Origin: Aquimarina sp. BL5
Lineage (GTDB): Bacteria > Bacteroidota > Bacteroidia > Flavobacteriales > Flavobacteriaceae
Length of the DNA: 64,000 nt
Direction: 5' to 3'
NCBI RefSeq assembly: GCF_003443675.1
Contig: NZ_CP031963.1
Location: 1,387,501 to 1,451,500 of the forward strand
Part shown: positions 10,975 through 42,052 of the stretch, piece by piece
Layout: each line of letters begins with the position of its first letter
Numbering within the stretch: the stretch's first letter is position 1
Notes under the pieces: model-generated
Database searches by the model: none
Told to the model about the DNA's origin: nothing
What the model saw: the letters and a program-made list of their open reading frames with translations, nothing else
Program-made: the position numbers and the translations under genes

Positions 10975-11538
10975 TCAGAAAATAAAATAACCAATTGATA
11001 ACTGAAATACTCCATTTTTATTTTTATCTGAAATACCATCTATATTATTGATATCAGTAAGTCCAAGATTATATCTTGCGCTAAAATAGAGCCCGTTATC
11101 AAGTTTATAACCTAAACCAAAATTCACTCCAAAATCTGTTGTTTTAAATAGATCCTTATTCGTATTAGTACCTCCTTTAGTGGAAAGTAGAAAACCAATT
11201 TGAGGCCCTGCTTCTAGACTCAATCCTTTGGTCACATAATATTTTAACATTAATGGAACATTCAAATAGTTGAGTGCTATAATACCCTCGGAATCAACAT
11301 CTGAGCCATATCCTTGTCCGGAATACATTAATTCTGGTTGAAAAGAAAATTTATCTGAAATTTTAACTTCAGCCATAACTCCCAGATTAAAATCTGTTGT
11401 CCAGCCGATTTCAGAGTTGTTCTCTCCTGTAAGTGTCGCGAAATTAAGACCTCCTTTTACTCCGAAATTAAGGTCTTGTGCATTAATATTCGATAATCCT
11501 AAAACTGTTACAATACCTATTAATACTACTTTTTTCAT
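10975..11538 (-). CDS. PorT-like outer-membrane beta-barrel protein
   Basis: A 187-residue protein. The signal peptide (about 1-20, ending NINAQ) is followed by eight or so amphipathic strands with Gly-rich turns, for example FGVKGGLNFATLTG, FSFQPELMYSGQGYG and GLSLEAGPQIGFLLS. It ends in a C-terminal aromatic residue (GYFIF), the usual outer-membrane barrel signature. This is the small porin-family/OMP_b-brl_2 type common in Bacteroidota. Ligand unknown. It is monocistronic with its own terminator. Confidence 0.85.
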   Translation of the reverse strand: MKKVVLIGIVTVLGLSNINAQDLNFGVKGGLNFATLTGENNSEIGWTTDFNLGVMAEVKISDKFSFQPELMYSGQGYGSDVDSEGIIALNYLNVPLMLKYYVTKGLSLEAGPQIGFLLSTKGGTNTNKDLFKTTDFGVNFGLGYKLDNGLYFSARYNLGLTDINNIDGISDKNKNGVFQLSIGYFIF

Positions 11539-11841
11539 AAATTAATGTTTTTTATTTATTCGTGTAAAAGTAGATTTCTAAAAAAATAAATAGGTGATTT
11601 TGAGATTAGAGAAGTATTAAAACAAAGGAATTTTACGAATTAGGACGTTTTTTAAGCTTTCTAAAGGCTCCCGCTACAACTAGTTTGTAACTAGTGCGTA
11701 CCACAAACAGGTAAAATCTTATTGGATATCTCTAGAAACTAAATCTGAACCCTTATCGTCTCATCGAGTGATTTTATCATTAGCGATAGCGGTACAAAAT
11801 AAAAGACAATAGTAGCAAACGAAAAAGTCTATATTTATCAT
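11539..11841. other. Intergenic region with two repeat fragments
   Basis: The 303 bp between the divergent porin and GIY-YIG genes. It contains a CTAGT-family fragment at about 11671-11700 and, from 11736, the left half-repeat of the GIY-YIG element. No other gene is seen. Confidence 0.6.
11671..11700. repeat. CTAGT-family repeat fragment
   Basis: CCGCTACAACTAGTTTG followed by TAACTAGTGCG contains the palindrome CTAGTTTGTAACTAG. This is related to the start of the long copy at 15656 (CTGCCGCTAGTTTGTA). Confidence 0.4.
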
Positions 11842-12135
11842 ATGAAATTATCCTATGTATATATTTTGAAATGTGCTGATGATTCTTACTATACTGGAGT
11901 GACTTCAAATTTTAAGCAACGATTACATCAGCATCAGTCTGGTTATTTTAAGGATTCTTATACCCACAATAGAAGACCCGTAGTATTGGTATATATCTGT
12001 GAATTTACAGATATCCAGTTAGCAATTGATACTGAAAAACAAATTAAGAAATGGTCAAGGACTAAAAAAGAGGCTTTGATTAATGGAGCGTATGACAAGT
12101 TACCTAATTTGGCCAAAAAGAAATTTCAACAATAA
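11842..12135 (+). CDS. GIY-YIG nuclease domain protein
   Basis: A 97-residue single-domain protein of the small UPF0213/YhbQ-like GIY-YIG type. It shows YVYILKC and YYTGVTSN (the GIY...YIG strands), FKQRLHQHQSG with the conserved Arg, and the C-terminal AIDTEKQIKKWSRTKK helix with the catalytic Glu and metal/DNA-contact Lys residues. All core residues appear intact, so it is likely an active DNA nickase or nuclease. It is flanked on both sides by halves of a repeat whose gene-less copies form a tandem array immediately downstream. This suggests the gene travels with, or acts on, that repeat. Confidence 0.88.
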   Translation: MKLSYVYILKCADDSYYTGVTSNFKQRLHQHQSGYFKDSYTHNRRPVVLVYICEFTDIQLAIDTEKQIKKWSRTKKEALINGAYDKLPNLAKKKFQQ

Positions 12136-12177
12136 AAGGATCTCGATACATTTTTCTTCCATTACATTTCAGAAAAA

Positions 12178-12235
12178 CACTCGATCTGACGGGCGTGTAA
12201 AAATTAAATCTGAACCTCTAACGTCTCATCGAGTG
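12178..12235. repeat. Inverted-end junction of the array, copy 1
   Basis: CACTCGAT at 12178-12185 and its reverse complement ATCGAGTG at 12228-12235 bound a 58-bp segment. The equivalent segment in copy 4 spans 12779-12836, where the right box marks the end of the array. Confidence 0.75.
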
Positions 12236-12859
12236 TTTTTATCATTAGCAATAGCGGTTGATAAAATTGTATCGAGATGCAACACAAGACGAAAAACCAA
12301 TAGGCAACCTGAAAAGATTTTAATAGTTCTGCTGGGTTTATAGAAGTACAATTTTTCTCCATTATCATTCCGAAAAAACACTCCATCCGACGGGCGTGTA
12401 AAAATTAGATCTGAACCTCTAACGTCTCATCGAGTGTTTTTATCATTAGCAATAGCGGTTGATAAAATTGTATCGAGATGCAACACAAGACGAAAAACCA
12501 ATAGGCAACCTGAAAAGATTTTAATAGTTCTGCTGGGTTTATAGAAGTACAATTTTTCTCCATTATCATTCCGAAAAAACACTCCATCCGACGGGCGTGT
12601 AAAAATTAAATCTGAACCTCTAACGTCTCATCGAGTGATTTTATCATTAGCAATAGCGGTTGATAAAATTGTATCGAGATGCAACACAAGACGAAAAATC
12701 AATAGGCAACATTAAAAGATTTCGATAGTTCTGCTGGGGTTATAGAAGTATAATTTTTCCATTATCATTCCGAAAAAACACTCGATCTGACGGGCGTGTA
12801 AAAATTAGATCTGAACCTCTAACGTCTCATCGAGTGAATTAGTTATTCTCAAATCCTTT

Positions 12860-13459
12860 TTAATATTCGTATTCTAACATACCTTCAATTTCTAATAATT
12901 CTTTTTCTTTATCAGGAAACATTAAAAAGAGTTTATCTAAAAGCTTTTTAGCCTCACGGCAATTTTGAAATTCACTTTGACATTCAAAACTATAGGATCT
13001 AACAAGTCTGTAATTGATATCATAGTTTTTTGGGAAAATTTCTTTTGCTTTTTTATAGTAAAAGATAGAATTACTCCATTTCCCTTTTTCGAACCACTGA
13101 TCCCCCTTATCTATTTGTAGTAAGAACTGTCTTTCTTGTTTTTTGAATTGTAAAGCTTGTGCATTCTCTTGAAGATTCTTTGAATCTATATTGTTTTGAT
13201 GGATTATACCAATAGCAAAATATGCAAAAACACTTGTTACCACTATTGCAATAGCAATAAGTACGCTATTTTCTTTTCGCCTATCCTTTATTATTTTTTT
13301 TCTTATTTGCAGTAGTTCTTCATCAGAAGCTTCTTTTAAACTTGATTTTCCTTCAGTGTCTTTTAAGTTTTGCTTTTCTAATAGTTTTTTAGGCTTAAGT
13401 AATTTTTTATTATTACCTAAGCTAGTTATAATCCCCGCAACACTTCTTCCCTCTAACAT
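12860..13459 (-). CDS. Single-pass membrane protein with TPR-like C-terminus
   Basis: A 199-residue protein. The charged N-terminal cytosolic part (about 1-64, rich in Lys/Leu) is followed by one membrane helix (about 66-86, VLIAIAIVVTSVFAYFAIGI). The C-terminal helical region has a TPR-like repeat (about 110-190: GDQWFEKGKWSNSIFYYKKA). No enzymatic motif is present. It may be an envelope scaffold. It lies directly right of the GIY-YIG repeat array, whose last inverted end is 24 bp past its stop codon. Confidence 0.6.
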   Translation of the reverse strand: MLEGRSVAGIITSLGNNKKLLKPKKLLEKQNLKDTEGKSSLKEASDEELLQIRKKIIKDRRKENSVLIAIAIVVTSVFAYFAIGIIHQNNIDSKNLQENAQALQFKKQERQFLLQIDKGDQWFEKGKWSNSIFYYKKAKEIFPKNYDINYRLVRSYSFECQSEFQNCREAKKLLDKLFLMFPDKEKELLEIEGMLEYEY

Positions 13460-13766
13460 TTTTAACTATTTACTGATAATTAGATCTAAACAATTGCATA
13501 GGTCCCTACTAATATGTAGATCCAAAATTAAATTTGTTACAATCGTCCAAGGAAAAAACAACCGTAATACAAAAAATTATGGTTGTTATATATGTTATTA
13601 CTTGTAATTGACACTAGTCATACTTGTGTGTCTTGGGCGGAGACTAGCGGTAGCGAGGGAACTTTAAAAAAGTAACCTTAAAAACAATCCTGTCAAACAA
13701 GATTAATTACTCTTTTATCTACTTTCTTATAGTATCCTAAGAGTAACTGGCTAATTTTATTTTCTT
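13460..13766. other. Intergenic region with hairpin and dispersed repeat
   Basis: A 307-bp stretch that holds a hairpin around 13557-13590 (AACAACC...GGTTGTT) and the dispersed repeat at 13610-13653. No gene seen. Confidence 0.6.
13610..13653. repeat. Dispersed CTAGTC/GACTAG palindromic repeat, copy 2
   Basis: It starts GACACTAGTCATACTTGTG and ends GGAGACTAGCGGTAG. CACTAGTC and GACTAGCG are near-complementary ends. It is nearly identical in plan to the copies at 3409 and 14431 and lies downstream of the minus-strand gene at 13767. Confidence 0.7.
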
Positions 13767-18738: not shown

Positions 18739-19028
18739 TTGTTTAAGTGACTACTGTTTTTCGGTTTGATGAATGTTCGTCATAATGTTTGCCAACTTGC
18801 ATGTATAGTTACTATTATGCTTATTACCGTTTGTAACTAATTACAAACATTTATAAATGTTTACTATCGCATCTGGATTTTATTATAAGTTTTAAAAATA
18901 ACGTAAAACTCCCCATATTACAAAATGATATGGTTCTTTTATATGTTGAAAACAGCATTTTAGATTTAAAAACCTATTCTCGATACACTTCTAATAAAGT
19001 CGAAGCACTCGAATTGACGTTTTTTATA
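18739..19028. other. Intergenic region with repeat fragments
   Basis: A 290-bp spacer. It holds a TTTGCCAACTTGCATG stretch near 18788, similar to an attC outer box but with no clear mate. A solo fragment of the GIY-YIG-element B half lies near its right edge. Confidence 0.45.
18978..19019. repeat. Solo fragment of the GIY-YIG repeat family
   Basis: TCTCGATACACTTCTAATAA, then ACTCGAATTGACG, matches the plan of half B after the GIY-YIG gene (TCTCGATAC ... CACTCGATCTGACG). It lies 10 bp after the stop of the gene at 19029. Confidence 0.55.
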
Positions 19029-39950: not shown

Positions 39951-40358
39951 CTATATTAAAGTTAATTCTTCATTAAAATACTCCATCATTATAGTATCCA
40001 TAACAACTCTGGAAAGCATTTTTCCTTTAAAACCTTTAATCTCCGGGATTGCATCTGCTATAGCTCTATCTTCTGCTGCTAACACGGAACCAAGCATCAA
40101 AAAAATGTTTGTCTTTCTAAATACATTTTCTAGTTTTTGAAATTCTGACAAAAACTTCCAACCATTCATTACAGGCATATTGATATCTAAAAAAATTATT
40201 TCAGGTATAATTCCTGATTTAATAATTTCCAGAGCTTCTAAACCATTTTTAGCAACTAATATTTCATCAGCGTATCCTGTTTTTGAAAGTATTATTTTAT
40301 TAAAAAAAATAGTCGCTTCACTATCATCTACCAAAAGTATTCGTCTTATTGTTTTCAT
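39951..40358 (-). CDS. Single-domain response regulator, type A1
   Basis: A 135-residue receiver with no output domain. The acidic pair is VDDS (about 11-14) and the phospho-Asp lies in FLDINMPVMNGW (about 56-67). The usual switch Thr/Ser position is glycine (FLMLGS), and the Lys-Pro motif is KML rather than KP. Such degenerate receivers may act as phosphate sinks or constitutive binding partners. It is the last of four receivers on the same strand, immediately left of the receiver starting at 40777. Confidence 0.85.
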   Translation of the reverse strand: MKTIRRILLVDDSEATIFFNKIILSKTGYADEILVAKNGLEALEIIKSGIIPEIIFLDINMPVMNGWKFLSEFQKLENVFRKTNIFLMLGSVLAAEDRAIADAIPEIKGFKGKMLSRVVMDTIMMEYFNEELTLI

Positions 40359-40777
40359 ATAAATGGAGTTACAAAAAAGTGTTTTTCTATTACATTATTT
40401 AACAACGGGAATGATAATGGTTTACTAATAAGGTCTTCAACTAAAGAATTAGCTTTAGAGTTTTCTATGTCTTTAACATCAGAAGAAGTAGTTAATATTA
40501 TTACTTTAATATCTTTAATAATATGATGATTTAACTTTGAATATTCTATCAGGAACTCCCAACCATTCATGGCTGGCATATTAAGATCTAAAAAAATTAA
40601 ATCTGGTTTTAATGCTATTCCTTTTTCTACATTCATTAAATATTTTAAAGCAGCTTCTCCGCTCTGCTTTACTTGTATGTTGTCAAAATTGCTATGTTTC
40701 GATAAAACCATACTATTATAAAAGTTGGTAGGTCTATCGTCATCTATTAACAAAACGCAGTTAACTAAAGTATTCAT
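40355..40777 (-). CDS. Single-domain response regulator, type B1
   Basis: A 140-residue receiver (ATG at 40777; a TTG 14 codons upstream would add a poor leader). Motifs are complete: LLIDDDRPTNFYN, phospho-Asp FLDLNMPAMNGW, switch ILTTSSDVKD and Lys-Pro ISKPLSFPLL. It overlaps the type A1 gene by 4 bp. It is a paralogue of the receiver at 41411-41839. Confidence 0.87.
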   Translation of the reverse strand: MNTLVNCVLLIDDDRPTNFYNSMVLSKHSNFDNIQVKQSGEAALKYLMNVEKGIALKPDLIFLDLNMPAMNGWEFLIEYSKLNHHIIKDIKVIILTTSSDVKDIENSKANSLVEDLISKPLSFPLLNNVIEKHFFVTPFI

Positions 40778-40914
40778 AATATATTTTTGTTGGTATACAC
40801 CAAAAAAAACACATAACAATAAAAAAGTAATAGCAATCTATAATTTTAGTCTCTCGCTTTACGGTTAAATGCAAAAAAGACCGATAAAGTGTATTTATTT
40901 GTAGTTAAGTATGT

Positions 40915-40942
40915 TTGTTATACTTTTTTTTAAGTATAACAA
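40915..40942. other. Perfect inverted repeat between receiver genes
   Basis: TTGTTATACTT and AAGTATAACAA are perfect 11-bp arms around a six-base T loop. It lies between type A2 and type B1 genes. It could be an RNA hairpin limiting read-through between the two receiver pairs. There is no U tract after the stem on the minus strand. Confidence 0.4.
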
Positions 40943-40966
40943 CTAAACAAATGAGTTGGTTAATTT

Positions 40967-41368
40967 TTAGTTTGAAGGTTTATTGAAATACTTAGATACT
41001 ATTTCCAAAACAATTTCCTTGGTTAACATCTTTTCTCTAAATTCAGTTACTTGAGGAAAAGATTTTAGCATTTTTTCTTCTTCTGCCCTTAACTTAGCAC
41101 CTATCATTATAATGATTTTTGAACTTTTATAAGCAGCTGATAACTGATTGTGTTGTTCCAGAAACTCCCAACCATTCATTACAGGCATATTTAGATCTAA
41201 AAAAATTATTTCGGGAATGGTATCAGATTGTAGATATTTCAAGGCATTACTACCATTAGTAGCTATAAGCACTTCTTCTACACAGTCTGTTTTTTGGATA
41301 ATGGTTTTATTAAAAAAATTGGTTGAGTTACTATCATCAACGAGAAGAAAGCGTTTTAACTTAGTCAT
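40967..41368 (-). CDS. Single-domain response regulator, type A2
   Basis: A 133-residue receiver and close paralogue of type A1: LLVDDSNSTNFFNKTI, FLDLNMPVMNGWEFL. As in A1, the switch region is IIMIGAKL (Gly in place of Thr/Ser) and the conserved Lys is followed by Met (REKML). It lies downstream of type B2 with a 42-bp gap. With B2 it forms the second pair of the duplicated set. Confidence 0.85.
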   Translation of the reverse strand: MTKLKRFLLVDDSNSTNFFNKTIIQKTDCVEEVLIATNGSNALKYLQSDTIPEIIFLDLNMPVMNGWEFLEQHNQLSAAYKSSKIIIMIGAKLRAEEEKMLKSFPQVTEFREKMLTKEIVLEIVSKYFNKPSN

Positions 41369-41410
41369 TTTAAAAAATATGCCTTATTAAATCATAGTAC
41401 TCAAGGGATC

Positions 41411-41839
41411 TCACAAATTACTAACGGTACTTTTCGAAAAATGTTTTTCTATAACGTTATCTAGCAAATCTAATGATAAGGGTTTATTTATAAAATCATC
41501 TACAGAATGATTTTTTATTGATTCATTAACATCATCAGGATTAGAAGATGTAGATAACAAAATTACCTTAATTCCTTCTGTGGTTCTCTTATCCAATTTA
41601 GCAAACTCTATCAAAAACTCCCATCCATTCATGGCTGGCATATTGATATCCAGAAAAATAAGATCTGGTTTCATTGCTGTTTGGTTTTTTACATTGGTTA
41701 GATATTCCAGTGCAGCTTTCCCACTCTGTACTGTATTTATATTATCAAAACTATCGTGTCTGGTGACTACTCTTTCATTAAAGAAATTTGTAGCTTTATC
41801 ATCATCGATTAGCAGAACACAAGTGACCGATTTCCCCAT
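41411..41839 (-). CDS. Single-domain response regulator, type B2
   Basis: A 142-residue receiver starting at an ATG (MGKSVTCVLLIDDD). A TTG four codons upstream is less likely. All receiver motifs are complete: LLIDDDKATNFFN, FLDINMPAMNGW, ILLSTSSNPDD and FINKPLSLDLL. It is the first gene of the four-receiver group and closest in sequence to type B1. Confidence 0.87.
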   Translation of the reverse strand: MGKSVTCVLLIDDDKATNFFNERVVTRHDSFDNINTVQSGKAALEYLTNVKNQTAMKPDLIFLDINMPAMNGWEFLIEFAKLDKRTTEGIKVILLSTSSNPDDVNESIKNHSVDDFINKPLSLDLLDNVIEKHFSKSTVSNL

Positions 41840-42052
41840 AAAATTTTCCAATTACATTCAAAAGAACTAAACTTATTTGACATATACATCATAAAACCAG
41901 ACTTTCCCGAGCACTTTTCGTTCAAAAACCTAATTTAAACGACAAAACAACATCAAATGTTTTACCGTATATAAATTACGGAAATAAAGCATTAAAAAAA
42001 GCCTCTTACTAAAATTGAGAATCGTTTAACAGACTGCTATTAAAAATAAATG

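Follow-up and report, generated by a model that had tools for sequence, protein, structure and literature searches.

Small GIY-YIG nuclease genes beside CGTC-tagged palindromic repeats: a candidate enzyme-repeat partnership seen from an array in Aquimarina sp. BL5

The genome of Aquimarina sp. BL5 consists of one contig of 6,011,237 bases (NZ_CP031963.1), of which a stretch of 64,000 nucleotides (positions 1,387,501 to 1,451,500; hereafter the window) was analysed. It holds a gene for a small stand-alone GIY-YIG protein that is bordered by copies of a palindromic repeat element and followed by an array of repeat units lacking the gene. The features, numbered from the first nucleotide of the window, are these:

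11842-12135, plus strand: small stand-alone GIY-YIG nuclease gene, 97 amino acids (open reading frame, Pfam PF01541, catalytic residues, structural model).
11733-11793, plus strand: left flank copy A, the right half of a repeat element in truncated form, with inner arm ATCGAGTG, part of a side arm and CGTC at 11757.
12140-12278, no strand assigned: first full repeat element, with outer stem ATCTCGATACA/TGTATCGAGAT, two side hairpins and inner stem CACTCGAT..GACG/CGTC..ATCGAGTG.
12351-12551, no strand assigned: second gene-less 201-bp unit (repeat-unit comparison, Tandem Repeats Finder).
12552-12752, no strand assigned: third gene-less 201-bp unit (same evidence).
12754-12836, no strand assigned: last unit, partial, ending at inner arm ATCGAGTG (same evidence).
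18978-19019, plus strand: isolated half-element, TCTCGATACA-hairpin-CACTCGA-ATTGACG, away from the array (motif search).

A preliminary description of this stretch had reported that the flanks of the gene are rejoined downstream without it, with periods of 201, 201 and 199 bp, and both the block positions and Tandem Repeats Finder confirm this. A 61-nt block of the left flank recurs four times to the right of the gene (at 12198, 12399, 12600 and 12799), the copies from 11733 onward being spaced by 465, 201, 201 and 199 bp, and Tandem Repeats Finder places an array at 12150-12836 with a period of 201, 3.4 copies, 95% matches and a score of 1225. Pairwise identity among the three 201-bp copies is 91-96%. 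A short middle does stand in for the gene, as had been proposed: in the gene-less unit a 92-bp segment (12259-12350) takes the place of the 356-bp gene interval (11794-12149). The sequences CACTCGAT...ATCGAGTG, described as the inverted ends of the unit, are indeed inverted, but they are inner arms (within 12173-12191 and 12222-12240), and the structure is closed by an outer inverted pair (12140-12155 and 12263-12278) that the description had missed. The outer box is unrecognisable in the left flank copy (11733-11793), and CACTCCAT stands in place of the inner-arm sequence in two of the four downstream copies. Across the 6.01-Mb genome the whole 201-bp unit occurs at this locus only, with three weak partial matches at other places. 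Within the window there is no tRNA and no known RNA family at its gathering score. A diverged copy (78%) of the inner part of the repeat unit lies just upstream of the window, at contig positions 1387409-1387466.

The element at 12140-12278 is made up of an outer inverted pair (TCTCGATACA/TGTATCGAGA), an inner pair (CACTCGATCTGACG/CGTCTCATCGAGTG) and, between them, one hairpin per side. Folded as single-stranded DNA, 12139-12279 is predicted to form a four-way junction of -24.5 kcal/mol (z -5.1) that none of 200 shuffled sequences equalled; folded as RNA, it has a z of -5.6. Half-elements of the form TCTCGATACA-N12/42-CACTCGA number 18 in the BL5 genome and are present in 37 of 296 genomes of the order, and the reversed pattern has no match in either set. 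The repeat is dispersed, 9 of the 13 places listed in the BL5 genome lying outside the array. A side-arm stem of at least 5 bp can form in 79.7% of 123 distinct half-elements from the fetched loci, against 6.0% of shuffles, a test that used exact motif ends and statistics that ignore kinship; the side arms thus differ in sequence yet keep their pairing. The outer stem is constant, as is the inner stem with the GACG/CGTC tag at its end. GACG or GACA follows the inner box by 1-4 nt in 262 of 300 distinct window-type halves (5% with shuffled letters), and GACG/CGTC pairs stand in the array at 12188/12222, 12389/12423, 12590/12624 and 12789/12823. A strict CGTC/TGTC hairpin, with an 8-9 bp stem after the tag, a 4-5 nt loop and a CCA tail, is absent from 11000-13600. 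Because the tag is present while this strict stem, loop and tail are not, the element is CGTC-tagged but is not a classical CGTC repetitive extragenic palindrome (REP). Elsewhere, a 3.1-copy, 351-bp tandem array of window-type half-elements overlaps a long reading frame (L197 1795-2894, in G006:C51), and no GIY-YIG gene was found in the 5-kb region around it.

By profile (PF01541, E 2.1e-18, 66.8 bits against a Pfam cut-off of 22.6) and by fold, the window protein belongs to the GIY-YIG nuclease superfamily. It contains Y7, Y17, G19, R27, H31 and E65, and when equivalence is assigned by motif order with the catalytic Tyr17, Tyr29, Arg39, His43 and Glu82 of Slx1, as listed in the relevant passages of PMC8287910, its sequence indicates that the catalytic residues of this predicted nuclease are intact. 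The best Protein Data Bank (PDB) matches of the predicted model (predicted local distance difference test score 87.4) are the nuclear magnetic resonance structures of UPF0213 proteins, 1zg2 and 1ywl, followed by Slx1; the homing endonuclease I-TevI is a poor match (rank 38, E 2.1). In size, PF01541 domain, catalytic positions and fold the protein resembles the UPF0213 type, of which the two matched PDB entries are titled hypothetical and carry no link to repeats in their names. No NCBIfam family was assigned to the five proteins examined, viral contigs gave no confirmed match, and phage and plasmid relatives of the window protein are all below 60% identity. The C-terminal tails of several relatives, such as GFDSAQP in L052, L054, L055, L100 and L103, resemble a translation of the flanking palindrome, the repeat entering the 3' end of the gene.

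Is the pairing of gene and repeat peculiar to this locus? The BL5 genome, 56 relatives and 296 genomes of the order yielded 63 labelled small GIY-YIG loci with flanks, of which 61 proteins were placed in a tree, L041 (short flank) and L058 (a 30-residue fragment) being left out. Every one of the 25 genes in the window's clade has the outer box TCTCGATAC at a distance of 300 bp or less, which holds for none of the other 36 loci; of these, 24 have a different motif, CTGAG-N4/5-TCGAA, near the gene and 12 have neither. The repeat labels require 7 changes on the tree; shuffled labels need 28.5 on average, and none of 200 shuffles came as low. With L041 added the figures are 8 and 29.2. The density of the window motif in 25 longer regions is 4.43/kb up to 600 bp from the gene and 0.119/kb beyond. 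The clade count and this density bear out the earlier suggestion that nuclease gene and repeat belong together, and the case that had been named as counting against it, the repeat occurring without a GIY-YIG homologue in any such genome, was not what we found. The seven small GIY-YIG genes of the BL5 genome are themselves split by repeat type: besides the window gene, two at 218 and 220 kb lie inside arrays of CTGAGG..TCTCGAAG palindromes, and four in tandem at 40-42 kb, directly behind a tRNA-Met gene, have neither motif. By these sequence comparisons, one nuclease clade sits between copies of one tagged palindrome and sister clades sit by another. Co-occurrence at the level of whole genomes (Fisher counts of 17/17 versus 20/279 in the order and 9/9 versus 14/24 in the genus, the latter leaving out G328-G331, three of them with repeats and all outside the protein search) was set aside as proof, since copies flanking the gene themselves count as repeats and the p values are circular.

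Two other kinds of gene served as controls. Neither Bacteroidota motif was found within 300 bp of a Y1_Tnp domain at 30 loci (30 of the 62 matches in 25 genomes), 25 of which are in genomes with the window's repeat and five in the repeat-less G007, G032, G057 and G218; nor was either found within 300 bp of long GIY-YIG genes at 17 loci from the BL5 genome and its relatives. A strict CGTC detector, which rarely fires in Bacteroidota (2 of 80 GIY-YIG loci), likewise gave nothing near the same Y1_Tnp loci and ten long GIY-YIG loci, a result of little weight in this phylum. Transposases of the REP-associated tyrosine transposase (RAYT) and IS200 type were rejected as movers of the window's repeat, none of the 30 Y1_Tnp loci having it near.

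The second motif is found well beyond the order. A contig scan with an alignment of ten proteins from other clades gave 565 confirmed matches, and among the best 80, taken as named loci, 61 have CTGAG-N4/5-TCGAA no farther than 250 bp from the gene, 45 of them on both flanks, with a density of 4.86/kb near the gene versus 0.148/kb elsewhere in the same loci. The window-type motif lies within 400 bp at 11 of the 80. A CGTC/TGTC tag stands 0-6 nt upstream of the second-class motif in 185 of 250 cases (7% when shuffled), and the exact 15-mer CTGAGCYTGTCGAAG is present in 20 of 24 hand-picked genomes, with up to 451 copies, its reversed control being absent from all 24. Loci with the second-class motif come also from metagenome-assembled genomes (MAGs) named Nitrospinaceae, Nitrospirae, Ignavibacteriae, Chlorobiota, Anaerolineales, Syntrophaceae and Peribacteraceae and one named as a beta-proteobacterium, for all of which misbinning of repeat-rich contigs is possible. 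The 451 exact copies, with no reversed ones, are in the 7.5-Mb Anaerolineales MAG G337, the genome of locus L316.

A CGTC/TGTC tag is usual in both Bacteroidota repeats, and this led us to examine the surroundings of small GIY-YIG genes in Proteobacteria for CGTC REPs. In the relevant passages of a survey (PMC3733652, Di Nocera et al. 2013) these are defined by a CGTC/TGTC tag, are said to lack a dedicated transposase, their enzyme being left open, and are not found flanking RAYT genes. Among the first five plasmid loci, CGTC REPs lie at two Sphingobium records and at none of one Sphingomonas and two Methylobacterium records. A search of 398 Pseudomonadota genomes with the Sphingobium protein matched 97 at 1e-12, with up to six matches per genome, and 90 loci from 86 genomes were sampled (the 30 best and 60 from further down the list, chosen before their flanks were seen). 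Of the 90, 59 have a CGTC/TGTC hairpin (stem of at least 8, loop 3-7) no more than 300 bp from the domain, and 43 have one on each side; its density is 2.48/kb near the gene versus 0.194/kb elsewhere in the same loci, a 13-fold difference. Eight further named records, four of them picked from species or genera in PMC3733652, all have such a hairpin within 300 bp, that of Photobacterium solely 191 bp downstream, which brings the named proteobacterial records with hairpins to 10 of 13. The classical CGTC form adjoins small GIY-YIG genes in Novosphingobium aromaticivorans, Azospirillum lipoferum, Sinorhizobium meliloti and Neisseria, all named as CGTC REP carriers in the same passages (PMC3733652). 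As in the window, tandem arrays of gene-less CGTC REP pairs stand directly beside the gene in Rhizobium (L445), Photobacterium (L447) and Neisseria (L444).

Five of the six small GIY-YIG paralogues in genome G751 are flanked by REPs on both sides, and their nearest REPs have different stems (cores CCCGC, CCAGC, CTGAAC, CCGGC and CCTGC); a second REP beside L334 is of the type found at L421. Other genomes with several copies gave a varied picture: no strict REP was found near the four genes of G410 or the three of G526. The tags of the nearest REPs point outward in 27 of 43 Pseudomonadota, 10 of 18 window-type and 29 of 45 second-class cases, counts that are indicative only, given that the strict detector missed an imperfect REP beside the Azospirillum gene. 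In Methylobacterium, inspection by eye shows CACCTCAGGATGAGG / CCTCGAAGGAGG repeats on the flanks of the genes at L325 and L326; they have no CGTC tag and may represent a further class.

The comparison of filled and empty sites that the preliminary description had recommended succeeded for the related proteobacterial form and yielded no empty site for the array in the window. The gene of Azospirillum lipoferum 4B, with one REP pair per side, lies between sufB and sufC, which are 617 bp apart; in A. ramasamyi, A. oryzae and A. sp. B510 the gap is 91, 87 and 129 bp, with no gene, and none of these three aligned relatives has a REP at the empty site. Eight other Azospirillum rows match in two pieces over a shorter span, as listed and unaligned. 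For the window, three genomes keep the neighbour at 12860-13459 (60-66% identity), with the other neighbour not within 1.5 kb. The idea that the short units are derivatives of the nuclease copy, in the manner of miniature inverted-repeat transposable elements, fared worse: comparison of the gene-less linker with the interior of the gene unit scored 19, as high a score being reached by 82 of 300 shuffles, so the linker has no significant similarity to that interior and the comparison holds no trace of internal deletion.

Small GIY-YIG nucleases and CGTC-tagged palindromes are very probably a coupled pair, and the array in the window is probably a local cluster of a REP-like element, or of the REP doublet-forming hairpin (REPIN) kind, together with its partner enzyme. 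Since the same pairing is found in Proteobacteria, small GIY-YIG nucleases are candidates for the missing enzyme of CGTC REPs. If gene and repeat are coupled, what does the enzyme do? The nuclease would recognise the element in its folded state, either as a cruciform or on the lagging strand, and nick or cut it; repair or recombination at the break could then multiply, move or tandemly amplify elements, and a gene lying between two of them would be carried along. That the model has an Slx1-like fold and the element can take the shape of a four-way junction is no more than suggestive. In DNA hydrolysis by GIY-YIG enzymes no covalent link between protein and DNA persists, and for that reason the spread proposed here would proceed by break-stimulated copying and not by classical transposition. 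That the nuclease drives the spread of the repeats has, in our judgement, a little better than an even chance. The wider proposal, that small GIY-YIG nucleases are dedicated mobilisers of a CGTC-tagged repeat superfamily in Bacteroidota, Proteobacteria and beyond, with one clade per palindrome and the cut junction copied by host recombination, is tentative and falls somewhat short of that. If true, it would describe a class of repeat mobility without transposase, integrase or HUH enzyme.

Several observations weigh against an active role of the nuclease or soften the association itself. No nuclease of the window's clade could be placed in 20 of 37 repeat-bearing genomes in the order and 14 of 23 in the genus, including the single-contig genomes G019, G062 and G097, and TCTCGATAC is within 300 bp of none of 30 GIY-YIG loci fetched from nine such genomes. 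Repeats persist without the clade nuclease and are thus at present independent of it: they may outlive the enzyme, another enzyme may serve them, or the nuclease may be a follower and not a mover. The window's clade was delimited after the labels were known, its base is weakly supported (84/85), and L041, which shares 60% identity with the window protein, is placed outside it and has no motif in the one flank available. In the second class 19 of the 80 named loci lack the motif near the gene (nine have the window type, ten neither), and a strict CGTC hairpin is lacking near the gene at 31 of the 90 Pseudomonadota loci. A reversed-tag control in the latter set gave 12 hairpins near and 10 far (0.196 versus 0.044/kb), a roughly fourfold excess close to the gene, so some enrichment there holds for hairpins whatever their tag. 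The RAYT and long GIY-YIG controls cover Bacteroidota only. The alignment of filled and empty Azospirillum sites shows no clear target duplication, the intergenic flanks having diverged. Cleavage and movement by the nuclease are, finally, something we infer from sequence patterns.

The dependence just described runs one way, from clade gene to repeat (25 of 25) and not back, and this is what would be expected if the gene were a homing-like hitchhiker, the repeats spreading by other means while the nuclease cuts a repeat and is copied into the break; the position of the A. lipoferum gene between two REP pairs fits as well. Such a hitchhiker nevertheless seems rather unlikely. A homing target would be expected at the empty Azospirillum site, which has no REP, paralogues within G751 lie at different REP variants, and no other partner of the repeats was seen, the RAYT-type genes lacking them at all 30 loci. 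Free-standing GIY-YIG homing endonucleases resemble the window system in that the nuclease gene lies at copies of its putative target and shows insertion polymorphism (in Azospirillum); unlike them, it is outside any intron, intein or coding gene, and the putative target is a dispersed palindromic repeat.

The nuclease might instead be a host repair or housekeeping enzyme for hairpins or branched DNA, with the repeats regulating it or serving as a maintenance substrate and with no role in spread. After UPF0213 its closest folds are those of Slx1, and Slx1-Slx4 is described in the relevant passages of PMC8287910 as cleaving branched DNA, including Holliday junctions, with Slx1 alone inactive. 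Some small GIY-YIG genes also lack such repeats, as on the Sphingomonas plasmid L324, where the neighbours are nrdR and a gene for an RNA methyltransferase. A mobile unit is a better fit to the insertion polymorphism and to the finding of up to six matches per genome, and we consider a housekeeping role improbable. Ordinary tandem duplication in repeat-rich intergenic space, with the gene caught by chance in an unequal-crossover array, accounts well for the near-identical units in the window (91-96%) and for a type of repeat described as mostly intergenic (in part of PMC3733652), but it is contradicted by the 13- to 37-fold local excess in three data sets, by the match of clade to repeat and by the Y1_Tnp and long GIY-YIG controls, and is very improbable as the whole explanation.

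The coupled pair of nuclease and CGTC-tagged repeat is best compared with the GTAG REPs and REPINs, which in the relevant passages of PMC3116915 and PMC3733652 are short intergenic palindromes beside RAYT (TnpA-REP) genes, each enzyme having its specific repeats; a 'clover' fold has been proposed for REPINs (PMC3116915). In both systems the palindromes are single or in inverted pairs, dispersed and in arrays, and lie beside the gene of a dedicated DNA-cutting enzyme. Here, in contrast, the enzyme is of the GIY-YIG and not the HUH/Y1 type, and the tag is CGTC/TGTC, not GTAG; because no Y1_Tnp locus of 30 adjoins the repeat, the window system is not a RAYT system. With CGTC REPs the element has in common the tag, the palindrome and the inverted pairs; it lacks their simple stem, loop and CCA tail. 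We found no paper linking GIY-YIG genes to REPs in the open-access PubMed Central literature. REPs are widespread and their GTAG half has the RAYT enzyme; a candidate for the CGTC half makes the enzyme question testable in culturable organisms and, if true, would assign a function to a family of small nucleases that is common and little understood.

Three further loci deserve mention. At L206 (4204-4869, in G213:C9) an open reading frame lies between window-type repeats 1.2 and 1.9 kb away; it had no match in the PF01797 search, and its motif VVMPNHFHGI is one that we take to be RAYT-like. At L135 (G062:C1:540142-540336 and flanks) a small GIY-YIG gene adjoins a tRNA-Leu-like gene, a piece of whose start is repeated on the opposite side, and the CACTCGA inner-box matches on both sides, at first sight a window element, are by eye part of this duplication. 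The four tandem genes of the BL5 genome noted above (L025 1840-3364, at about 40339-41863 of the contig), which belong to a different GIY-YIG clade, form units of 349-352 bp behind the tRNA-Met gene identified by ARAGORN; each unit has a copy of the tRNA 3' end and a terminator-like hairpin, CGTCCGCCTCAGGCGGA is present, and from the sequence the set looks like an insertion at the tRNA 3' end followed by tandem duplication.
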